IMG/VR virus record: IMGVR_UViG_3300013372_003487
Location: 1 to 35,586 of that record
Strand: one strand, 5' to 3'
Source: a virus
DNA: 35,586 bases
The notes under the pieces are model-generated. The model did not search any database. It was given only the letters and a program-made list of their open reading frames with translations, and was not told the origin of the DNA. Positions 666-31,633 of this stretch are shown piece after piece (position 1 is the stretch's first letter; every line of letters begins with the position of its first letter). A program made the translations under genes and the position numbers.

Positions 666-6180
<5,515 letters not shown>

Positions 6181-6184
<4 letters not shown>

Positions 6185-9100
6185 GTGGCTATCACTCTCA
6201 TGGATTGAACAACTGGAACCACATTACCTAGCGAAGAATACATCACTAGTTTGATTGCAAAAGTTGAGAATTTATCCTTATCAGTCAACTCTAAGGTGTA
6301 TCTGACTTCTTGGAATTCGCCTTCTGCCGTATTTGCATCGGTGGAAGCCGTCATCTTTTGATAACCACGAGTCTCGAAATAAGTGTTTGAATCCGACTCG
6401 TCAGGCAGGGTTCTAGCAAACACTTCAATTGAGGACGGGGTTGGATTGCTGATGGTTAGGAACACATCCAAACGAGTAGCCGGATAATCCAAATTTACTT
6501 TCTTGCTAATATAGCGAGACTTAGACCTTACCGAAGAGTCTACACTTCTGTTATCTGAACTAATTTCGCCGTTATCATTCTGAGAACCAACCTTGTTGTT
6601 GTTTACCAAATTCTCAACAGAAACTATGCAACCACGATCTATATCAATCATCGGAGACACATATTTGTTTTCTGTGCTCATGTAACAGAACACAGAGGTA
6701 AATTTAGTATTTGGATTCAAGTCGGTGGTATCTCTTCTATTGATATTCTTGTTTAGAAGAACATCTGTAGCACCACTAGGCTTCATAATACCTTCTTCTT
6801 GCACAGTTACCGAAGTTCCTGGTGGGGTTACAGCAGGAATTTGAAATCTTACGACCGCCGGGTTTATGAGCGAAGACCCATAATATGTGTTTGGAATGTT
6901 CGATAGACGAAGAACCGAAGTTCCTGAAGTTTCAAATTCACAGATGTTTAGAGCAAACTTCAAATCTTCATTATCAATCTTGGTTAGCGTATTCTGTCCC
7001 TGTGCAGAATAGAGAGAACCAACACCAGGCTGATTAGTTGAAGAATATATCGGTGAACTTTCACTAGAACGATATAAAGTGTCTCCAATCTTGGCTGTGT
7101 GAACCGAGAACTTATCACTGCTTGTTTTTAACGAGAAGCAGTATTCGTATCCTGGTGCCAGATATACAGGAGATGAGAATTTAAACTTGGTTTCGGAATC
7201 TGTCGCATAATCGCTAACAGTTATTGAGTTTGAATAAACTGTTGATGTCGCTAAAGGTAGAACTTTAGATGGGTGCGGATAGCCCCCGCTCATCGGTTTA
7301 ATTGACATTGTAATTGGAACATTATAAGCCGAGTCAACCGTCTTAAACCACAAAGAAACGCTGTTTGCAAACACCCCATAAGGATATAAAACAGGATCAA
7401 TATAGAAGGATTGTGATAATGGATCCACCTTTCCAACACTTGATGCAGAATTTGAAGTGTTCTTCGTGAACACATTAGATTCTATGTTTGGTGAATTTAC
7501 GCTTACTCTGTAAGAAACTGGCTTACGAGTGCTAATTATACCTGCATCAAAATCCTTGGATTCGTTACTGCCGTCAGCATTAAAGATTTTATCTGCTGCG
7601 GTTGTGATTGCAGTTATATCGTTTGTGCTACTATCGCACAAGCGAATTAGTTTAGCACCAGTCTTTACTTTACCAGTTTCGTTTAACAGTATTGCATAAT
7701 TGGTTGCAGTTGCCCCAACTCCAATTGAGCCCGAAGGAGATGTGGTTATTGAAGCAGCCGTAGCACCTATGTTGTAAACTCCTGCTGTAAATCCTGGAGT
7801 TACTTGGTAGATTGTAGATGGGGTTGTGCTGCCATCAACAAATGCCCAAACTTTGGTTGAGGGTTTCAATTCTTCAGCAACAATAAGTGTGTAGATGTTT
7901 CTTGCGTAAAAATCTACATCCTTGTTTGCTTTACTTCCCAACTTCTTGTTAACAATTGATTCTGGTGTTATTGACTTTGGTGACAAGATGCCAGAGAATC
8001 TAGCAAAATTTGCATTTACCGACATTTCATCGGTTTGCTTGTTAGCCAAAGTTTGACTTGTTTCGTCTGTATATGCTTTCCCGAACCAGTTTGTTTCCCA
8101 GTCATTCCATTGTGTTCCAAATCCTCCAATTTGACCGGGGCCTGTGCCTCCTTCAGCACCCAAACTTCCTCTTACAGAATACGACCAGTTATCGTTTTCT
8201 CCCGAAACATTAACACGAACAGATGGAGATTGTGTATCTGCCATCCAAAAGTCTGAATCAGGATAAGTTTTTAGTGAACCCATGAAGTTAAAGATGCCGT
8301 ATGGGTTTACTTGACGAGAAGATGTTGCCAACGGTTGATTTACTCCAGCAACCTCATTGTTGATGCTGATAGTATAAATTCTATCAGCAGTAGGGCCTGG
8401 AAGGGCTGACGGTGAAATTAGAGAGGATGCTGGCAAACGAGTGTCGATATCCACTCTATAAATTTTGCTTCTAAATGCGGGGCGAAGCACGGTAGTTTCT
8501 GGATCAATTGCCGCATTAAACATCTTACTCTTAACATCTGCAATATTGTGACCACGGAAGGTGTCTACAAGAATTCCCTTCTTGGGAACAACATTACCGT
8601 CTACATCCTCTATAACAGTATTTTTTGCTTCTTGTTCTAGCAAATTCAAAGATGTGTAGTATTCTACAGCATCAATTCGCTTCTCTAAAATACCAATGTC
8701 TTCCATTGTGTAACGCTTGTTATTTTGAATTCTTACCGAAACATCATCCTTGGTGTTTGTATAAGGAGAATAATTCAAAGTGTAAAGCGTCATTGCATTA
8801 GCGTCATCTGGTGGTGTTGGAGCAGAAATATCAGCAATACCAGACACCAACTTGAATTCTTTGTTTCTTGTCAGAACAATCTTATCTGTTCTAGGTAAGT
8901 ATCTCTTAACATTCAAATAATTTACGCTGTTGTCTGACGGCAAAATGTTTGGCATAAATGTGTCATCGGGCATTTTGTCTGGACGGAAATCTATTACATC
9001 AGAAAGTTTGTAGGACTTTCCTGTGTCAGGACTGCTGTATGATGGAATTTGCTCTAGCGGCAAGTTGTAAGAATTTACAGTAAACGGAGCGGAGGTTGCT

Positions 9101-11283: not shown

Positions 11284-13758
11284 TCAGAACTGGAAGAGAA
11301 CCTTGATTTCCTCTCTCTGTTCAATATTTCTCTTGATTGGTTGCGTATTCTGTATGTAGATAAGTTCACCGGAGCGATACAGGAGTTCTTCTTCGTGAAC
11401 CACCGAGTTTACGAGACAATTTGCGGAACTTGACGCAGAATCTTTAAATTCTATCTGTGTTCCGGTGAATGTTCCTTTGACACCTGAAAGTCTCAAGGTT
11501 CCTGTTGTTGCTCCCACAGGGGAGAAAGACCACTCAACAACAAGTCCAGTTCCTTGGGTGGTTGCTCCTGTTATTCCCCGAACAGCAAAATCACTCGGGA
11601 AAGAAATTGTGGAGAATGGTTTAGCCTCAGTTGTAACAACCGTTAAAGTTGTGGTTTGATCGTATACTGAAACAGATTCTCGTGTAATTTCTCCAATATC
11701 CACAACTTTCGCTGTGGCTGAAACTCCTGTCGGGCCACCCAAAGTTGGGCGCATGTAGTAATCAGATTCCACCAAGTATTCAAACCGATTTGGATATTTT
11801 GTTGGATCTTCAACATATAGAGTTCCCAATGCATTATTGCCTGGAGCGGTTTCCCACTTATTGATTATTCCCGTGAAACGAGAATTTGAAATATTATTCT
11901 GTCTGTTACCGATAGAATTTACCCACAAGCCTGGACGGAAATCTGAGCCGTCCATTCGGAACTCTGCGCCCGAAGCACCTGAAGCAGGCGAAATCTTTAG
12001 ACGAAGAATTTCGCGTCCTTCGGTTCCAGCAACTGTTCTGCGATTTATATCCAAGATTGTAAAGTTTCCGCTACTTGCTGCTCCTGTTGAAGAAGCAACA
12101 ATTCCTCCACAAACAAATGCTCCTGATGTTATCGACTCAACAACAAGTTCGGATGTTCCGTTGTAACCACTAACCCCATCATTCCAAGAAACTATTCTTG
12201 CCGTTGCTGCGCTTAACCCTGTAGCACCATCAGCACCAGTTTTACCTTGTATTAGTGTTGCTCCACCTATAAAAGATCCAGACAAGCCCCATTGCTCTAG
12301 TCTAAATCTGGTTTGAGGTTTCTTTAATAGTGGGTTTTTTATAATACCAAATTGGCGGTAGTCATTATTAACAGATAGTTTTTTTCGTTCATCTTGACTA
12401 AAATCAATCACAACCATTAACGCGGCCGCGCCCAATTCTTTTATGGCATTACTTCCATGCCCGCCCGGAGGAGACAGAACAATATTTGCAACATCGTTAA
12501 TGTTTCCTGTTCCTGTGAATCCTGCTGCAAAGGTTAATCCCTTTACAGATATAAAATTTGCTCTACTATATCCAGCACCAGTGTCAACCATTTCGAACGA
12601 ATCAATCAAGGTCTGATTGTAAATGTTCGTTAGATTGCAGTTATCTCTAGAAGAAGTTACACCAGGCCCAAATTTAACGGTAATATCTGCCTCTTTAAAT
12701 TTGTTTAGGTATGTTTCTCGTGAATTGCCGTCGCCTTCTATTCTGATGTTTGGAACAATCGAAAACTTGCTAGAGTTTGCAGACAAACCAACAGTTAGAG
12801 GCTCATCTAAAGTAATTGTTCCGTAGTTACCTATGGCGGTGTAATTGTAGGTTTTGATTACACGGCGTTGCCCTTCACCAGGACCAGAATCTACCGAGAA
12901 AACTAGATCGTTATAAAAGTCATTTAGACCAATCAGATAAGGACTGTAAATTCTTATTGATCCTGTATATCCGTTTGAATAGTTTTGAGAAATTGAGTTA
13001 GAATTGTTTGGAGTTACACAATTTACAGCGGTTAGATATGGTCTATATTCTGCTCGAAGTTCTGTGAAAGCAATTTCTCCATCAATAGCACTTTGTTGAA
13101 CATTCCATTGCAGTGATCGTTCTTCATCAACTAGGCGAAGATAATCCACATACTCAACCGGAATGTATCCTTGAACTACAACTCTTTGAAATGCTGCGGT
13201 TGAACTTGAAGTTTCATCGTATACAGTCTTTGTGATAAACTTTCTTTTGCTCTCTGGAATCATATACATGAATTTCCAGCGATATCCATCAGAAAGTTTA
13301 CGAATTTCAGGATCAGTGTGTGTTGGTGCAACTGTAGATGCAGAGTTGTAATAGTTGTCTATGCACTTATAGACTCGCGTTTCATCAACAACCACATAAA
13401 ATCTAACAGGATTTATTGGATCAAAAACATCAGAATCATAGCGATAAGGCTCGTAAACAGATCCCAATTTCCAATCAAATCTTGGTATCACTAAAGAGGC
13501 GTTATCTTGGGTTAGCCGCTTTACAGCAACAACATTTTCCCAAAATTCAGTTTCTGTATCATCTGTATCGTTTGATAATGGAACAGAACTAGCATATGAG
13601 CCTGATGCTCCATTAGAAATTTCTTCAGTTTTCCAAGGATTTACTCTACCTATACTTAAGAAATAATTATTTTCGGATGAAATTGAAAGATCCGAAAGCA
13701 CCATTTCTGAAAGGTGTCTTCTAAAATTTTGCCGTATTGGTGAACAGGATGATGACAT
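11284..13758 (-). CDS. gp8: Baseplate wedge subunit gp8-like, enlarged (824 aa)
   Basis: T4 gp8 is a 334-residue dimeric wedge protein that joins gp6, gp7 and gp10. The landmarks are here at both ends. Residues 30-42 read NNYFLSIGRVNPW. At about 89-96 is LVIPRFDW, at 157-167 DGYRWKFMYMI, and the C-terminus reads RSGELIYIQNTQPIKR, then EEIKVLFQF, closely following the T4 C-terminal pattern. The extra length is central, roughly residues 240-785: beta-rich with a collagen-like GKTGADGATG at 505-514. The start is ATG 13758, 17 bases after the previous stop; only a weak AGGT ribosome site is visible, so coupling may help. The identification is strong; what the insertion does is unknown. Confidence 0.92.
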   Translation of the reverse strand: MSSSCSPIRQNFRRHLSEMVLSDLSISSENNYFLSIGRVNPWKTEEISNGASGSYASSVPLSNDTDDTETEFWENVVAVKRLTQDNASLVIPRFDWKLGSVYEPYRYDSDVFDPINPVRFYVVVDETRVYKCIDNYYNSASTVAPTHTDPEIRKLSDGYRWKFMYMIPESKRKFITKTVYDETSSSTAAFQRVVVQGYIPVEYVDYLRLVDEERSLQWNVQQSAIDGEIAFTELRAEYRPYLTAVNCVTPNNSNSISQNYSNGYTGSIRIYSPYLIGLNDFYNDLVFSVDSGPGEGQRRVIKTYNYTAIGNYGTITLDEPLTVGLSANSSKFSIVPNIRIEGDGNSRETYLNKFKEADITVKFGPGVTSSRDNCNLTNIYNQTLIDSFEMVDTGAGYSRANFISVKGLTFAAGFTGTGNINDVANIVLSPPGGHGSNAIKELGAAALMVVIDFSQDERKKLSVNNDYRQFGIIKNPLLKKPQTRFRLEQWGLSGSFIGGATLIQGKTGADGATGLSAATARIVSWNDGVSGYNGTSELVVESITSGAFVCGGIVASSTGAASSGNFTILDINRRTVAGTEGREILRLKISPASGASGAEFRMDGSDFRPGLWVNSIGNRQNNISNSRFTGIINKWETAPGNNALGTLYVEDPTKYPNRFEYLVESDYYMRPTLGGPTGVSATAKVVDIGEITRESVSVYDQTTTLTVVTTEAKPFSTISFPSDFAVRGITGATTQGTGLVVEWSFSPVGATTGTLRLSGVKGTFTGTQIEFKDSASSSANCLVNSVVHEEELLYRSGELIYIQNTQPIKRNIEQREEIKVLFQF

Positions 13759-13775
13759 ATTACCTATTATCTATA

Positions 13776-16700
13776 TTAGGTTAATTGGTAATTAAATTCC
13801 TTGACGGTTTCGCTGCCTGGAATAATGGCATTTGAAACATTTCGGAAGTATAGTTTAAGTCGATATACGCAATTTGTGTTTGGATACTGATTTCCTCTCC
13901 AACTAAATGGACTTCCTACGGTTCCTCTACCCAAAGTTATTGCACCAGGCTCGCTGTTCGGATTGTCGGGATTTACGAACGGATATAGGATGTTTATGCT
14001 GTTGGCAGAGGTTGGGAAAGGTCCCACCGAAGCCATCTGATATTCCTTGCCGGTTTCATCCACCACAGACAAATCTGCCCAAAGACTTATTGCCGAGTAA
14101 TACGAGAGGTATAGCAAGGTTGAAAGACCTGTCAATTCACCCGAAGAAATCAGAACACCATCAAGTTGAATGTTCATGGATCGGCTACCAGGTTCACTAT
14201 CAACCACATATTGGGTATCTGTGCTCCAATCTGGCGTGTTTACTGGCTTTCCGTTCAGGGCAATCACCTTAACTTGAGGAACAGGAGGAGCCAAAACTTC
14301 TTGATTTTTACAATTAAATTCAGGACCAACTGGCATTTCTAGGAATGAACGAAGAGTTATCTTTCTGAATTCTGAATAATCTACTCTAGAACCCGGAGTT
14401 GTTAGTGCGAGTATTGGGCCGCTATCTCCAGTTTCTCCTGAGGTCGAGCCGGTTTGACCCAATTCACAGTTACAAGTTTCAACACAATATATGTGATTTA
14501 GTCTGTAGTCAGCAGAACAATCTATAGGCAGACATTGCCCGCAATTTTCATATGCTTGTTCTGTTGGGCAATCAACACAAGAAGCACATCCTTGTCCAAC
14601 ACAACCGTTTGCAACACAAACAGAGCAATCAATAGAAGGGACACATTCGCAATCTCTACAGAAACCATAATTTATGCTATACTGATTATCACAATCGGAT
14701 GGTGTGCATTGCGAACAGTCTGTATAAGAAATTTCACAACCACAATCAATACAGAATTGGTGATTTATAGAAGTTGAATTATCACAATCTCCTTGTAGAC
14801 ACTGATTGCAATTTGTATATCTTGCAGGGCCGTCATATATACACTCTTCACATTCTGTTCTGCAACGAACACCGTTGCAATCATTTTGAACACATTCATC
14901 ACAAAGAACTGTTGTTGGCACACAACCACAAGTGTTTCGGCAGAATTTTGTGTTAACTGTTATTGCATCGCAATCTAGTTGAGTGCATTGATTGCAATTG
15001 GTGTAACTTGTTCCACAACCACATTCAAGACAGAAAGCATAATTTCTAGTTCCAGGAGTGCAATCAGCCGGAGTGCAGTCTGAACACTTGGTATATTTCT
15101 TGCAACCTGTGCAATTATGACAACCCGAGCATCCTTGGCAATCATAACTTCCCGTAATTGTAAAACATTCAAATATTGGTGAGCAGCATTCACAGCCTGT
15201 GCATCCAGAACTCGTTTGACCTGGAGGTGGGCAACCTGTGCAACTGTGACAGCCCGAGCATCCTGCACAATCGTATAGACCACTAACAATATTATAACAA
15301 GGCAATCCTTCCCAAGTGCTGCATGCTCCACAACCAGTTGGGCCAGCAGACGCTCCTGTTAACGAGCAGCCCGTGCAACCGCCAAATCCTGAGCAACCAA
15401 GACAATCGTAAATTCCTAAGAAAGTGTTCCAACAAGCAAATCCATTGGCTGTAGTTCCACAGCATAGAGCACCAGAGCAGGTTGGACCTGTTACAGGGCA
15501 ACCTGTGCATTGCCAACAACCTGAGCAACCTTCACAGTCATACGCTGTTGGTATGTTCATTGTGTAGCAAGGATTTACTTCAGAACAACGAGCGCATCCT
15601 GTGGCTGGTGCTGTTATTCCACAACCCGTGAAACCAAAGCAACCCGAGCATCCTTCACAATCCTTCAATCCTGTTATACGATTGAATCCGCCAGTCATGC
15701 AACAATCGCATCCAACACATCCACCTGTTACAGGACATCCTGTGCATGAGAAGCACCCCGAGCATCCCTCGCAGTCATATAGACCTGTTACAATGTTGTA
15801 GCAACCGCCTGTTACGCTTGTTGAGCAGCATCCGCAGCCTGTGCAAGAAGTTGCTCCTGTGATAGAGCAGCCTATACATCCGTGGCAGCCAGAGCATCCT
15901 TGGCAATCGTAAATACCTTCAACAGTAAAACACGGGAAATCTACACTACAAAGAGCGCAGCCAGTAAGTGCTCCGGTAACTCCGCATCCTGTGCAAGAGA
16001 AGCAGCCAGAGCATCCTTGGCAATCATAAATGCCCGTTACAATATTAAAACATGGGCCTGTTGTGCTTGAAGAACAGCAGCCGCAACCTGTGCATGAAGT
16101 TGCTCCTGTAATTCCGCATCCTGTGCATCCCCAACATCCTGAACATCCTTGACAATCGTAAATGCCTTCAATAGTAAAACAAGTATTAAATTGACTGCAA
16201 AGATCACACCCCGTGAGCGGTGCGGTAATGCCGCATCCTGTGCAACCATTATAACCAGAACAACCAACACAATCATAAAGTCCTGTTACAAGATTATAGC
16301 AAAGATTACCACTTGCTACTGTTCCGCAACAAGCCGTTCCTCCTGCTCCTGTGCAACCAGTTGAGCCACTTGTTCCGGTTCCGCCGCTAATTCCGCATCC
16401 TGTGCAACTCCAGCATCCTGAACATCCTTCACAGTCATAAAGTCCTGTTACCATATTGAAGCAAGTAGCCACAGGATCACAAACTGCACAAGGATTGGTT
16501 GGTATAGTTGTGCATCCTGTGCAACCAAAACAACCAGAGCAACCGTCGCAATCGTAAATACCGTCTAGTTTCCAACAAGGAAGATCTGACCGACAAAGAT
16601 TGCATCCCGAAACTCCTGTTGGGCCCTGAGGACATCCTGTGCAACTATAGCATCCTGAACATCCTTCGCAGTCGTAGAGTCCTGTTACTATGCTAAAACA

Positions 16701-18596
16701 TGGTGTTGTCTGATTGCATGAATCGCATGGGTTTGCTGGTATACTTGTGCATCCTTGACAACCAAAGCAGCCCGAGCAACCTTCACAATCGTAAATTCCT
16801 GCAAGAGTAAAACAAGGAAGATCTGATCGGCAAAGATTGCATCCTGATATTCCTGTTGGGCCTCGAGGACATCCTGTGCAACCAAAGCAACCTGAGCAAC
16901 CCACACAATCGTAAATACCGTCAACAGTATGGCAAAGGTTTACAGAACTGCATAGAGCACATCCTGTTGCAGGAGCAGTTATTCCACATCCTGTGCAACC
17001 AAAGCAACCTGAGCATCCTTCGCAATCAAGCAGTCCTGTCATTATGTTTAGACACGGGATACCAGGATGGCATGAATCGCAAGGATCTTGAGGGACAGAT
17101 GGGCATCCAGTGCATCCACCAAATCCTGAGCAGCCTTCACAATCATAGACTCCAATAAATGTGTTCCAACATTGATTTCCACCAGTGATTGTTCCACAAC
17201 AATTTGCGCCACTACATGTTGGGCCTGTTGCTGGACATCCTGTGCAGCCTGGACAACCCGAGCATCCCGCACAATCGTATAGACCGCCTAGTGTGAAGCA
17301 ACCAAACTGGCAACAATCGCAGCCTGTGCATGCTGTTGGGCCAGGATCTCCACCAAAAATATAAGCCCTGTCAATAGGGTCGTAAACCACGGGAACATAA
17401 CCCATATCAATCAACTTTTTGATTTCTGCACCGCGAGCAACATCTCTTTCGTGCGCTCGTGTTGGATCTCCACCAAATCCTCGTAAAGCAGGATCGTTTG
17501 ATGAATACCAATTGCAACCAACCCAAGTTTCGTGATCTGGCGAAAGATAATTTGCTATTCCAAAAGATGAATCGACAATTTTATTTTTACTGCTATTATC
17601 AAACAGATCAATAAATGTTGGATCTCTTCTGTGCAGATAATCCGCATTTCTAGCCTCTGTAATATACTTGATTGTTCCTTCATACTTACCCAAATAAGTG
17701 TCTCTATGAATTTGTGCTTTTTCTGGAGACACTTCATTTGGAGCATTGCTTGGATGCCAAGCATCCAGACCTATCATTCCTTTGTTAACTCCTCTAGAAT
17801 TAACGGTCATGTTTGCAACTTTGTCTAATTGGCTTTCAAGCAAGGCTTCATCAAAAACTGAACTACCAAACGGATAAAGTGCTCCACCAAAACCAGTTTG
17901 ATGCTTTAGCGCATTGCCAAACCAAAATCCTACTCGTTTATCGTCATCAAGCGCATCTATCATGTTCTTGAATAAAGTCAATCCAGCATCCATGTTGTTT
18001 TGGATTGAGAATGTTGCGCCAGATGGAGTTATCCAAATTCTGTCAGGCTCATCCCAATGAGAAATAGTTCTGGTTACATAATTTCCGTTAACTCCCGCGC
18101 CACTAGCCGCCCAAATCATAACACGATCCCAACCTCGGGTTTCTATTTGATCTTTAACATAATTGACAGGACCAGACATACCAACAACATTAGGATACCC
18201 ACCAGATTGAAGATATTTTGTGGTTTCTTTATTCCAACCATAAGCATTTGCTGTTGGACTCGAAATATCAACCTGATCTTCGTAAGCCAAAACTACACCA
18301 CGGACAGGTCTATAGTCTGGTATATACGCTTGCGGATAATAAGTATCAAGATAATTTCGATAACTAGACAGAGTTTCAAAAGTAGCAGCATCCAAAAGAA
18401 TATTTGGTGCTCCTGGATCTACTACTTGTTGTTCGTTGCCTCCAACTTCCTCAAAGCCTATATCAACAGTTCTATTTCTATCGTTAGAAACTAGCCCTGC
18501 TAATATGTTAACATCACTTCTAGGCAGTTTATTAAACTTATAAACTACTTTAAATACTCTTGTTTCACCTGGTGCTAGTTTGGCTGTGCTACCCAT
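13776..18596 (-). CDS. Baseplate-locus protein: barrel-like domain plus giant cysteine-rich repeat array (1606 aa)
   Basis: I know no family matching the whole protein. Residues 1-80 are beta-rich. Residues about 85-415 have alternating short hydrophobic strands and helices (GVVLAYEDQVD, DRVMIWAASGAG, KRVGFWFG, KGMIGLDAWHP, YVPVVYDP), as in glycoside-hydrolase-type TIM barrels. Residues 421-1165 hold 18 units of about 40 residues built around YDCxGCSGCxGCTGC. Residues 1167-1378 hold seven units of a second type, YTNCNQCxxxDCD...FCxxCGC. Residues 1385-1606 are ordinary beta-rich sequence. By hand count about 194 of residues 401-1400 are cysteine, against three in the rest of the protein. It lies between a polysaccharide lyase and gp8, so a virion appendage is likely. 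ATG 18596 follows AAAGG; the gap to the upstream stop is 11 bases. Confidence 0.82.
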   Translation of the reverse strand: MGSTAKLAPGETRVFKVVYKFNKLPRSDVNILAGLVSNDRNRTVDIGFEEVGGNEQQVVDPGAPNILLDAATFETLSSYRNYLDTYYPQAYIPDYRPVRGVVLAYEDQVDISSPTANAYGWNKETTKYLQSGGYPNVVGMSGPVNYVKDQIETRGWDRVMIWAASGAGVNGNYVTRTISHWDEPDRIWITPSGATFSIQNNMDAGLTLFKNMIDALDDDKRVGFWFGNALKHQTGFGGALYPFGSSVFDEALLESQLDKVANMTVNSRGVNKGMIGLDAWHPSNAPNEVSPEKAQIHRDTYLGKYEGTIKYITEARNADYLHRRDPTFIDLFDNSSKNKIVDSSFGIANYLSPDHETWVGCNWYSSNDPALRGFGGDPTRAHERDVARGAEIKKLIDMGYVPVVYDPIDRAYIFGGDPGPTACTGCDCCQFGCFTLGGLYDCAGCSGCPGCTGCPATGPTCSGANCCGTITGGNQCWNTFIGVYDCEGCSGFGGCTGCPSVPQDPCDSCHPGIPCLNIMTGLLDCEGCSGCFGCTGCGITAPATGCALCSSVNLCHTVDGIYDCVGCSGCFGCTGCPRGPTGISGCNLCRSDLPCFTLAGIYDCEGCSGCFGCQGCTSIPANPCDSCNQTTPCFSIVTGLYDCEGCSGCYSCTGCPQGPTGVSGCNLCRSDLPCWKLDGIYDCDGCSGCFGCTGCTTIPTNPCAVCDPVATCFNMVTGLYDCEGCSGCWSCTGCGISGGTGTSGSTGCTGAGGTACCGTVASGNLCYNLVTGLYDCVGCSGYNGCTGCGITAPLTGCDLCSQFNTCFTIEGIYDCQGCSGCWGCTGCGITGATSCTGCGCCSSSTTGPCFNIVTGIYDCQGCSGCFSCTGCGVTGALTGCALCSVDFPCFTVEGIYDCQGCSGCHGCIGCSITGATSCTGCGCCSTSVTGGCYNIVTGLYDCEGCSGCFSCTGCPVTGGCVGCDCCMTGGFNRITGLKDCEGCSGCFGFTGCGITAPATGCARCSEVNPCYTMNIPTAYDCEGCSGCWQCTGCPVTGPTCSGALCCGTTANGFACWNTFLGIYDCLGCSGFGGCTGCSLTGASAGPTGCGACSTWEGLPCYNIVSGLYDCAGCSGCHSCTGCPPPGQTSSGCTGCECCSPIFECFTITGSYDCQGCSGCHNCTGCKKYTKCSDCTPADCTPGTRNYAFCLECGCGTSYTNCNQCTQLDCDAITVNTKFCRNTCGCVPTTVLCDECVQNDCNGVRCRTECEECIYDGPARYTNCNQCLQGDCDNSTSINHQFCIDCGCEISYTDCSQCTPSDCDNQYSINYGFCRDCECVPSIDCSVCVANGCVGQGCASCVDCPTEQAYENCGQCLPIDCSADYRLNHIYCVETCNCELGQTGSTSGETGDSGPILALTTPGSRVDYSEFRKITLRSFLEMPVGPEFNCKNQEVLAPPVPQVKVIALNGKPVNTPDWSTDTQYVVDSEPGSRSMNIQLDGVLISSGELTGLSTLLYLSYYSAISLWADLSVVDETGKEYQMASVGPFPTSANSINILYPFVNPDNPNSEPGAITLGRGTVGSPFSWRGNQYPNTNCVYRLKLYFRNVSNAIIPGSETVKEFNYQLT
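14463..15098 (-). repeat. Second-type cysteine-rich coding repeat (CNQC/DCD/CGC units)
   Basis: Codes residues 1167-1378. Five full units of about 30 residues (starting near 1167, 1198, 1260, 1291 and 1349) follow YTxCxQCxxxDCDxxxxxNxxFCxxCxC. Two shorter units (near 1231 and 1322) lack the middle loop. A unit of the same style opens the collagen-like fibre at 666-5960 (residues 7-29), so the module is shared between two proteins. Confidence 0.85.
15102..17333 (-). repeat. 18-copy cysteine-rich G-C-X coding repeat
   Basis: Codes residues 422-1165. Each unit of 38-54 residues reads C..C, spacer, C(F/Y/W) plus a hydrophobic strand, G(I/L)YDC, then GCSGCxGCTGC. The DC core starts at residues 441, 485, 524, 563, 603, 642, 682, 721, 775, 814, 858, 897, 941, 979, 1020, 1064, 1109 and 1152. 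Two unit types tend to alternate (CFTLxGIYDC and CFNIVTGLYDC), so there is a higher-order period of about 79-83 residues, for example C586 and C665 both start CNLCRSDLPC. DNA copies are imperfect. Confidence 0.9.
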
Positions 18597-28356: not shown

Positions 28357-30309
28357 TCAATAGGGAAATGGTGCGCCAGTTTGTTCGTTAATAGTAGCAA
28401 TTGAATCAAGTTCCACATTAAAATTTGATTTGCTATAATCCAAAACTATAATTTGGTTACGCAAAGACTGTATATCGGATTTTTGGGGAATAACGGTTAT
28501 TTTTATTTCAGAATCGGTTCTTGGTTCAATATATTGCGGATTAAAGTTATTTAGTGTGATGATACCAGTATTATAATTTATCTTTCCTATTTTGGTGTTG
28601 ATATACACCTTGGTGGTTCCTTCAATTTTATAAATTCTGATATTCCCGTAACCGTCGTCATCAAGATAAGCATCAACAACTGGCTTTACTACCGCTGCGT
28701 TTGTTTGATCTTGGTATCCAAAAGCAGATGAAGAGACAATAGGAGTAAATCCGTCTATAGGATGAAGTAAAGGATTATTGAAACGAATAGTGTATGGAGA
28801 AGGTTTGCCTAAAAATGGCTCAATTCTTTTTTGTAGGCGAACCGAAATATTGGTCCCCGCGATAGATTTATTTGAGTTGTCTACCAAAGAAGACAGTTTG
28901 GATGCCTTGAAATTTCTACCAAACTTGTCTAAATTTGCGGTTTCAAACGATTCAACCGTCAGTTTGATCTGAGCAGCAAGTCCTGCGGGACTTAAATTTG
29001 TTCTAGACGGATCATAAGCCGAAATTGAATCAATTTCCAGATAAATGTAATCAGGGTCAACAATTTCTGGTTGAATTGTAACTAGATTTCTTTTACCCAA
29101 CACACTCTTTTGAATGGCTAGTTTTTCAAGAATTCCTATCTTGTTTCCATTTTTGGGCTTTATTGATATGAAAACTTTGCCGTATTGTGGAGGATCGTTT
29201 TCTTCTCCGCCCCACACAAAGAATGAATCTACACCTTCACTGAACTCTTTGACTAATATGGTTTTATAATCTTCAACTGTTACTGCTCGTTCTTGAGCCT
29301 GATAGTTTCTTGGTGCGTAATACTTGATTGATTCAATACTCTCTGGTAGAGTTCCCCCATAAGATACGGTTGGATTTCCGTCTGGATCTGAGATGGTGGA
29401 TACGCCATACGATGGTGATCCGGTTGAATCGACCTTTTGAACATACGGTGCTAGCACTCCAGAAACATACGAGAAAGTTCTGCAATTGTTTGCAAGTTCG
29501 CCGTTCGTAAGAAGATACTCCACGCTTATCACATTTCCATTTTCTAGGGCTTTTCCTACTATTCCATCTCCGAAATAAATTTCAAAATTTCCATCTTCAG
29601 TTTCTTGCAAGAAATATACTAGCGAATTCGAGTTTAACCCGTTCACATCGGTGGCTTTATTCCATATGTTTATCAGTCCTGTTGTGTCTGTTACTGACTT
29701 TTGGATTCGGACTCTTAGAGTATCCACATCAATATTATTACTTGGAAGAATGAATCGTTGGGTTGGGTCAAAAGAATTTACAACAAAGGTGTATGTTCTG
29801 AGAGTTCCCTCATAAGCCTTAACATTCTTAACTGTAGCAATTCCACCAATCATATCCACTTTGTAATCATCCAAAACAACAAAGTTAAAGAAACGATTTC
29901 CTGGCAGGGTTGCTCGGAAAATATCACCTCGGTTAACAAAGGCATTACCTTTTCTTACACGATCCTCGACCGTTTCTCCATTGGTGTTTGTTATAGTTTG
30001 TGTTCCAAATTTAACATCCAAAAATATCTTGGAGGCTTTAACTGACCTTGGTGTATAACCTAGTTGTTTGGCAATAGAAACCGTGCTTGAACGAAGAGCG
30101 GACGAATCCAAAAAGGCTTCATTCGCAACCATGTTTGCGTAGAATGCCTGATAGTGTGTATTGTAGGCAAGAAGATCTAGTATAATGTTCATGCCTGATC
30201 CTTCAAAATCAAAATCTTTAAACTGATCTTGAGAACGAAGATAGGTTTTAAGGTTTGACTTTATTGCATCAAAGTCTAAGCCGTCAATTCTTAGGTTGGT
30301 GTTGCTCAT
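28357..30309 (-). CDS. gp6: Baseplate wedge subunit gp6-like (650 aa)
   Basis: gp6 forms the continuous ring of the T4 baseplate wedge and belongs to the baseplate J-like family. Length (650 against 660 in T4) and N-terminal pattern agree: DFDFEGSGMNIILDLLAYNT at residues 37-56 against DYDFEGSRLNVLCDLLAYNT in T4, followed by the ALRSSTVSIAKQLGYTPRS segment. Further family marks are ENFxIYFGDGI-like FEIYFGDGIVGK, APRNYQAQERAVTVEDYKTI near residue 335, and FISIKPKNG. The gene overlaps gp25 upstream by four bases (ATGA), as is usual for a coupled wedge operon, and it is followed after 8 bases by the giant wedge protein. Confidence 0.96.
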   Translation of the reverse strand: MSNTNLRIDGLDFDAIKSNLKTYLRSQDQFKDFDFEGSGMNIILDLLAYNTHYQAFYANMVANEAFLDSSALRSSTVSIAKQLGYTPRSVKASKIFLDVKFGTQTITNTNGETVEDRVRKGNAFVNRGDIFRATLPGNRFFNFVVLDDYKVDMIGGIATVKNVKAYEGTLRTYTFVVNSFDPTQRFILPSNNIDVDTLRVRIQKSVTDTTGLINIWNKATDVNGLNSNSLVYFLQETEDGNFEIYFGDGIVGKALENGNVISVEYLLTNGELANNCRTFSYVSGVLAPYVQKVDSTGSPSYGVSTISDPDGNPTVSYGGTLPESIESIKYYAPRNYQAQERAVTVEDYKTILVKEFSEGVDSFFVWGGEENDPPQYGKVFISIKPKNGNKIGILEKLAIQKSVLGKRNLVTIQPEIVDPDYIYLEIDSISAYDPSRTNLSPAGLAAQIKLTVESFETANLDKFGRNFKASKLSSLVDNSNKSIAGTNISVRLQKRIEPFLGKPSPYTIRFNNPLLHPIDGFTPIVSSSAFGYQDQTNAAVVKPVVDAYLDDDGYGNIRIYKIEGTTKVYINTKIGKINYNTGIITLNNFNPQYIEPRTDSEIKITVIPQKSDIQSLRNQIIVLDYSKSNFNVELDSIATINEQTGAPFPY

Positions 30310-30695: not shown

Positions 30696-31353
30696 TGTTT
30701 TTCCTTAACATTTCTAGTTCTATAAAAGAACGATATTGTTCCATTAGTCGTTTAGCATCATCTGGATCATCAGGCAACATCATTATGTCATTCCATTCTA
30801 ATCGTATAAATCCAACATACAGTTCACCTTTTCGTATTGGCAGAACAGAGAACGCCTGAATGTTTTTTGAATCATTATAAGTTTTTAAAGCACTTTCAAC
30901 AGGCAGAGATCTGGTGAATCTTATCTTTGAATCATTTTGCTTTAGCATTTGAATCATATCACTAAACAAGGTGGTTAAAACTGCTTGAAGAAACGGATAC
31001 TCCATTGATACGCCAGGATTGCAAGTTTCGTGCGTAACACTAAACCGCTTCATTGGAGATCCCTCCAAGAATTTTCCTCCGTTATGAAACTGCGCGATTT
31101 GTGCTCGATCTGCGCTCATTTGAATTCTTAAAGACACCAACATATCGTAAATGTTGTTGTGTTTAATTTCGCTAGGAGACACTACATCAAGATTTTCTTC
31201 TTCAGTTTTCATTTTGGCATACTTATTTTTAATGTAGGTTACACCCATCATTATGCCACCCATAACGGCAGCAATGCCTACACCCACATTTGTCCAAAAT
31301 TCTAAATTTACCGCTGAAAGAATCACTACTTTACCCTCCTCCACAGTAAACAT
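30685..31353 (-). CDS. Single-membrane-segment protein with GAF-like domain (222 aa)
   Basis: Residues 19-41 (FWTNVGVGIAAVMGGIMMGV plus TYI) form one clear membrane helix with charged KNKYAKMK after it. Residues about 55-215 look like a GAF-type sensory fold: ADRAQIAQFHNGGKFLEGSP, then FSVTHE, a helix, and AFSVLPIRKGELYVGFIRLEW. I do not know an established function for this kind of protein in phages. It sits between PAAR and gp25. Options are a membrane-anchored assembly factor, a holin-like or lysis-timing protein, or a superinfection factor. I chose ATG 31353 because AAGAGGAAG precedes it by five bases; a GTG at 31383 would add ten residues. It overlaps the PAAR gene by 23 bases. Confidence 0.75.
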   Translation of the reverse strand: MFTVEEGKVVILSAVNLEFWTNVGVGIAAVMGGIMMGVTYIKNKYAKMKTEEENLDVVSPSEIKHNNIYDMLVSLRIQMSADRAQIAQFHNGGKFLEGSPMKRFSVTHETCNPGVSMEYPFLQAVLTTLFSDMIQMLKQNDSKIRFTRSLPVESALKTYNDSKNIQAFSVLPIRKGELYVGFIRLEWNDIMMLPDDPDDAKRLMEQYRSFIELEMLRKNNGK

Positions 31354-31633
31354 TACTGCTTCCTCTTGCCATTGCGGAACCACAACCCACAGGGTCGCCT
31401 ATACGCATTCCCTGACGACTATTCACAAAAACTTGAGAAGATCCTTTTACACTGATGGAAATATGAATGGGATGATCGTCATCGCATCCGTGGGCATGGG
31501 GCCCTAATCCATCGTATTGACGATGCCAACCTTTGCTGTTTACAAATACATTGTTCGACCAAGCGATAACTTGGCGTGGTGGGTGGCAATCGTGCCCGCT
31601 ACAAATATCCCCTCGTGTGCTTACTCCAGGCAT
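31331..31633 (-). CDS. PAAR-domain baseplate spike tip protein, T4 gp5.4-like (100 aa)
   Basis: PAAR proteins cap the central spike of contractile injection systems with a sharp zinc-stabilised cone; T4 gp5.4 is the phage example. Here MPGVSTRGDICSGHDCHPPR opens the protein, SNNVFVNSKGWHR and SSQVFVNSRQGMRIGDPVGC are the two repeated V-F-V-N strands, and GSAMARGSSNVYCGGG closes it. His14, His17, the His46-His48 pair, His54 and Cys residues 84 and 97 are candidate metal ligands. Length about 100 is typical. It shares one base with the upstream stop (TAATG) and has the strong ribosome site AAGGAGAGGA. Order gp5, one gene, PAAR, gp6 region matches T4. Confidence 0.93.
   Translation of the reverse strand: MPGVSTRGDICSGHDCHPPRQVIAWSNNVFVNSKGWHRQYDGLGPHAHGCDDDHPIHISISVKGSSQVFVNSRQGMRIGDPVGCGSAMARGSSNVYCGGG
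31359..31367 (-). promoter_or_regulatory. Ribosome binding site fixing the start of the membrane/GAF-like gene
   Basis: The minus-strand sequence AAGAGGAAG ends five bases before ATG 31353, an ideal Shine-Dalgarno spacing. It lies inside the 3' end of the PAAR gene. The upstream in-frame GTG at 31383 has no comparable site. Confidence 0.7.

Follow-up and report, generated by a model that had tools for sequence, protein, structure and literature searches.

The cysteine-rich array encoded in this viral DNA (IMG/VR record IMGVR_UViG_3300013372_003487, 35,586 nucleotides, hereafter the window) is probably a string of disulfide-stapled small domains that forms the extended arm of a giant gp7-type (BW3) baseplate wedge protein, judged from sequence comparison. 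The array is borne by a 1606 aa minus-strand ORF (Table 1). The plus frame across the repeat coordinates is rich in stop codons, and the repeat reads on the minus strand.

The motif DCxGCSG was counted exactly 18 times, which bears out the number of copies given in an earlier note on this DNA. That note had placed the array at 15102-17333, approximately 745 residues; its location was correct, and the end was moved to 17342 (747 aa). Copies are spaced 38-54 aa apart, and units of 36-54 residues end in DCxGCSGCxxCTGC. Region composition alone gives an expected count of approximately 0.004 (our own arithmetic) against the 18 observed, which excludes chance. For repeat comparisons without synonymous saturation, dN/dS was 0.06-0.17, indicating purifying selection and hence that the array ORF is translated. 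A chance or low-complexity artefact was ruled out by the 18 precise copies together with dN/dS well below 1. At 15736-16245 a tandem duplication of 249 bp, comprising two units, can still be recognised, and the number of units is 18 in the window versus 14 in relatives.

Cysteine accounts for 152 of the 747 array residues (20%) and for 197 residues (12.3%) of the whole ORF. The approximately 190 thiols noted earlier are thus those of the whole protein and not of the repeat alone. Other virion genes in the window are of ordinary cysteine content, most below 1%. Each unit of the window array contains 8 or 10 cysteines. All five cysteines that had been ascribed to the core of each unit are present in 14 of 18; the third is missing from units 2, 9 and 16 (SGF or SGY instead) and the fourth from unit 14 (GFTGC). 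The strict G-C-X period that had been described was found over approximately 13 residues per unit and extends no further than four triplets.

Table 1. Features of the window discussed in the text (all on the minus strand).
Feature	Position	Strand	Remarks
Bead unit (CTGCGCC...) in the tail fibre protein 666-5960	1611..1712	-	
gp8 baseplate wedge, downstream neighbour	11284..13758	-	PF09215, E=2e-13; phrog_438
Cysteine-rich ORF, 1606 aa	13776..18596	-	Predicted to be the C-terminal half of a giant wedge protein of the baseplate, here split; T4 gp7 position
C-terminal conserved domain, aa 1408-1606	13779..14375	-	From alignment; found only in the four relatives
Second cysteine-rich array, aa 1166-1377	14466..15101	-	Seven units of six cysteines
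18-unit cysteine array, aa 419-1165	15102..17342	-	Units of 8 or 10 cysteines
Unit 14, without e and C4 (TGGF ... GCFGFTGC)	15621..15734	-	
Unit 2, without b and C3 (CSGANCC ... GCSGFGGC)	17103..17234	-	Units 9 and 16 alike
N-terminal region without cysteine repeats, aa 1-418	17343..18596	-	Helix/strand alternation
Heparinase II/III-like ORF between the gene halves, 884 aa	18608..21262	-	PF07940, E=1.6e-9
gp7-like baseplate wedge N-terminal ORF, 2359 aa	21269..28348	-	PF23786 (Baseplate_wedge), E=2e-11, over the cut-off; phrog_17744, E=4e-59
gp6 baseplate wedge, upstream neighbour	28357..30309	-	phrog_219, E=4e-172; PF21379

Cysteine covariation was assessed in 66 complete units, comprising 18 from the window array, one from the window fibre protein, 14, 14, 14 and three from four relatives, and two from contigs L014 and L023. 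The units come from the window phage and from six related contigs, L023 and L011 being one and the same contig; all belong to one small clade. In the fullest form, CxxCxCC(n)C...DCxGCSGCxxCTGC, the cysteines were named a, b, c, d, e and C1-C5. Five states were found: 19 units had all ten cysteines, 28 lacked a and c, 13 lacked b and C3, four lacked e and C4, and two lacked a, c, e and C4. The pairs a-c, b-C3 and e-C4 were each jointly present or jointly absent in 66 of 66 units (r=1.00). Other pairs of variable cysteines gave r from -0.45 to -0.08, none in full agreement. Cysteines d, C1, C2 and C5 were invariant (66/66). The number of cysteines was even (6, 8 or 10) in 65 units, the exception being unit 1 of L011, which has 11 owing to one extra upstream cysteine. 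An even count in 65 of 66 was never reached in 100,000 shuffles of core versus upstream counts (maximum 53), and the window alone gave 18 of 18 (P about 3e-4); since the units are related by descent, these parity statistics serve as guides only.

Because of this relatedness, the cysteine columns were left out when a unit tree was built (31 columns), and cysteine changes were mapped onto its branches. Seven changes were reconstructed (four of a-c, one of b-C3 and two of e-C4), a modest number from a single small clade; in all seven both partners changed on the same branch, and unpaired changes numbered zero. In orthologous stretches cysteine columns were kept at 117/117 in L009, 117/117 in L010 and 115/117 in L011. 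The two losses in L011 are e and C4 of one unit, unit 4, which reads ...NLCHTV...HGCTGC in L009 versus ...NLGYTV...HGFTGC in L011. Well over ten residues separate b from C3, and likewise e from C4, a distance that rules out one small deletion as the cause of their paired loss. The assignment of a-c is a choice of register made by matching d-e loop lengths between 8- and 10-cysteine units; the joint loss of two cysteines holds whatever register is chosen.

Conserved cysteines, paired loss and even counts were thus all found, as for a disulfide-rich domain. Correlated mutations have been used for the prediction of disulfide connectivity (PMC3548674). As an orphan thiol would be harmful and a missing bond tolerable, paired loss leads us to infer strongly that the array cysteines form disulfides, three to five per unit. 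Predicted bonds are b-C3, e-C4 and a-c, and two further bonds would join d, C1, C2 and C5. The disulfide-locked part of one option in the earlier note is thereby strongly supported, by the pairwise loss of cysteine across 66 units and on the tree.

The rest of that option, the bundle of polyproline-II (PPII) helices, and the note's other option, a metal-binding rod, fared less well. An AlphaFold model of three units was of low to moderate confidence (mean pLDDT 65, pTM 0.35). In it every unit takes up one and the same short element, a turn plus a hairpin; the G-C-X core is mostly coil and the linkers are at pLDDT <50. A Foldseek search with this model against the PDB gave no fold match. A continuous PPII/polyglycine-II or collagen-like rod with cysteine-locked strands, of the snow-flea antifreeze or gp38 kind, would account for glycine at each third residue of the GCSGCxGCTGC core and is compatible with the modelled coil. 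T-even gp38 adhesins are an established case of a polyglycine-II sandwich that carries receptor loops (PMC12892980). Such a rod is nonetheless very improbable here, given a period of only four triplets per unit, linkers of variable length, replacement of the third cysteine in three of 18 units and the low-confidence breaks between units. Beads on a string would suit the AlphaFold model better than a continuous rod. A collagen triple helix was rejected separately: the longest G-x-x run is seven triplets, versus 25 and 17 in the neighbouring fibre protein, and Pfam Collagen matches that fibre protein and not the array protein.

An arm binding zinc or iron-sulfur, or metallothionein-like, for stability or as cargo (such as iron delivery of the Ferrojan Horse type), is considered quite unlikely, and metal binding is disfavoured as the main role. 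The CxxC pairs b-d and C1-C2 resemble zinc knuckles, the exactly four invariant cysteines (d, C1, C2 and C5) would fit one Zn(Cys)4 site, and sequence searches of the PDB returned nothing but ArfGAP zinc-finger proteins, well short of significance (E 0.12 and 0.21). The other six cysteines, however, vary two by two, which would leave a Cys4 site half empty, and histidine is scarce (5 of 747 array residues). Metallothionein-like clusters follow no parity rule, and from a site with four metal ligands one would expect cysteines to be lost four at a time. Phage tails are known to contain metal sites: lambda gpL has a 4Fe-4S domain (PMC11101478), and the Milano spike probably holds an Fe ion (PMC10811340). 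A redox-gated lock, in which reduction at the cell surface frees the arm or wedge and helps to trigger tail contraction, would be compatible with the disulfide reading and shares its position with the cross-linked BW3/gp7 wedge protein of Milano, in which contraction requires the bonds to break (PMC10811340). It is improbable in the present case, as pairing within a unit staples beads and does not cross-link subunits, and the sequence gives no evidence of inter-chain bonds.

Read from right to left, the window constitutes a T4-type tail module in the order gp5-like hub/lysozyme, gp25, gp6, cysteine-array locus, gp8, DUF4815 protein and collagen-like collar-domain fibre. The order gp25-gp6-[locus]-gp8-DUF4815 is that of Caulobacter phage Cr30. 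Up to gp8 it is also that of Synechococcus phage S-WAM2, and the middle gene in these phages is gp7-like. In the window the gp7-like N-terminus and the cysteine arrays are two separate ORFs; the best PDB sequence match of the former is T4 gp7, a weak one (E=0.019). In the related IMG/VR contigs L009, L010 and L011, the gp7-like N-terminus, with its wedge-core homology, and the cysteine arrays form a single ORF of 3120 to >3488 aa, L010 being incomplete at both ends. By gene order and homology, the cysteine-array ORF is assigned as part of a T4 gp7/BW3-type baseplate wedge protein. The giant gene is split in the window by the heparinase-like ORF, which has its own start (junction ...AESQLF / STAKLAPGETRVFKV...). 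This ORF gave no match in the relatives or among phage records and looks like a polysaccharide lyase gene captured by the baseplate operon. Also within the operon is a 100 aa ORF of 5% cysteine (31331-31633, minus strand).

The N-terminal region of the array protein (aa 1-418) gave no PDB sequence match, and an AlphaFold model of it (four sequences) was discarded at pLDDT 35. The second cysteine-rich array directly follows the 18-unit array and is mostly of the pattern CxxCx4CxnCx2-3CxC. Its cysteine columns were kept 42/42 in each of three relatives, and six cysteines were present in all seven units in five of five proteins. A pattern scan with this second array returned the same relatives only, plus chance matches.

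Only four contigs among 2.9 million viral contigs were found to carry the array. Cysteine arrays were absent from 50,697 phage records (tblastn, E<=1e-5), and the one match in GTDB genomes, in a Streptomyces reading frame of 316 aa, was due to chance. A second, looser pattern scan added only chance matches beside the known loci. Pfam, NCBIfam and the PDB held no curated-family match for the array. In PHROGs one weak match was obtained, phrog_36982, which was judged compositional, as it also matches collagen-like and CSGC proteins. The earlier statement that no described phage protein is alike stands within these databases and the phage records, with that weak match. Confinement of the array to few contigs, together with the cysteine-poor gp7-like proteins of Cr30 and S-WAM2, argues that the arrays are an addition to the gp7 protein within a small clade. 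Metagenome project numbers give the impression of a freshwater habitat for this clade.

The window, L014 and L023 each also have a single unit of the bead family in their collar-domain fibre protein. The window fibre protein (666-5960, minus strand) is collagen-like, with 46 cysteines in 1764 aa, a cysteine-rich N-terminus, several more cysteine-rich patches and the one bead unit. In a relative, L098, a fibre-like protein (2946-6428, minus strand) has a cysteine-rich N-terminus followed by what appear by eye to be RCC1-like repeats.

In the stapled arm, a full unit of ten cysteines would hold five disulfides, the common unit of eight four, and the smallest unit of six three. The beads would be joined by linkers rich in Gly, Thr and Pro, and the arm would become longer or shorter as units are duplicated or lost. 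The thiols are presumably still free while the chain is synthesised and incorporated into the wedge in the reducing host cytosol; lysis would then expose the virion and the thiols would presumably oxidise. Oxidation after lysis may be the simplest answer to the question, raised earlier, of how so many thiols are kept soluble. For that question the cross-linked baseplate of phage Milano, which the earlier note does not mention, offers a precedent (PMC10811340). The oxidised arm could serve as a spacer or adhesin stalk resistant to chemical and proteolytic attack, holding the C-terminal domains out from the baseplate towards the cell surface. We infer the beads-on-a-string shape, the timing of oxidation and the spacer or adhesion role indirectly. 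If the protein is present at six copies per virion, which we take to be the number for T4 gp7, close to 1200 such cysteines would be carried by each virion. A stronger proposal, which is possible yet unlikely, is that a new disulfide fold has been tandemly amplified in the baseplate and that, at six copies, just under 600 disulfides form outside the cell after lysis in a redox-controlled arm. If true, the phage would use the oxidising exterior as an assembly or arming signal. A connectivity open to test (b-C3, e-C4, a-c) follows from the sequence itself, and the system allows one to ask concretely when and how the virions of phages become oxidised and what part the bonds play in infection. The unit is a compact, apparently new disulfide module with possible use as a scaffold.

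Agrobacterium phage Milano is alike in having a myophage wedge protein at the gp7 position and abundant virion disulfides, which are predicted in the present case. Milano baseplate proteins, including the gp7 homologue BW3, are disulfide cross-linked, and reduction of disulfides was proposed as the contraction trigger (PMC10811340). Milano and its relative 7-7-1 indicate that myophage virions can bear dense disulfide networks (PMC10811340, PMC12796354). In Milano, cysteine makes up approximately 2% of structural proteins and bonds form both between and within subunits (PMC10811340), whereas here the small units of the array have 20% cysteine, with bonds predicted within units, and the other baseplate genes are ordinary in cysteine. 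The 3446 aa protein of the T4-like cyanophage S-WAM2 shares the gp6-gp8 locus, a similar size and N-terminal homology, but has 8 cysteines and zero CxxC. Caulobacter phage Cr30 has at the same place a gp7-like protein of 767 aa with no cysteine.

The T-even gp38 adhesin is likewise a phage adhesion protein with glycine-rich segments of period three (PMC12892980). By the searches run it has no homology to the array. We know of no comparable cysteine array in T-even gp38. The CSGCSDC phage proteins returned by the first DNA pattern were set apart as the family phrog_15341, with CSGCSDCSRC... runs in L032, L048, L049 and approximately 40 other viral contigs. They have cysteine at each third residue with G, S or D, but are of about 200-300 aa, lack a 40-residue unit and form a separate family. 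Tandem small disulfide beads forming an extended arm are found in the EGF-like and TNFR modules of eukaryotic extracellular repeats, which differ from the array in cysteine spacing, the array itself having no Pfam or PDB match to them. Arrays of disulfide-rich beads are characteristic of secreted proteins of eukaryotes; to find one of 18 copies in a T4-like phage, in a wedge protein presumably assembled in a reducing cytosol, is unexpected.
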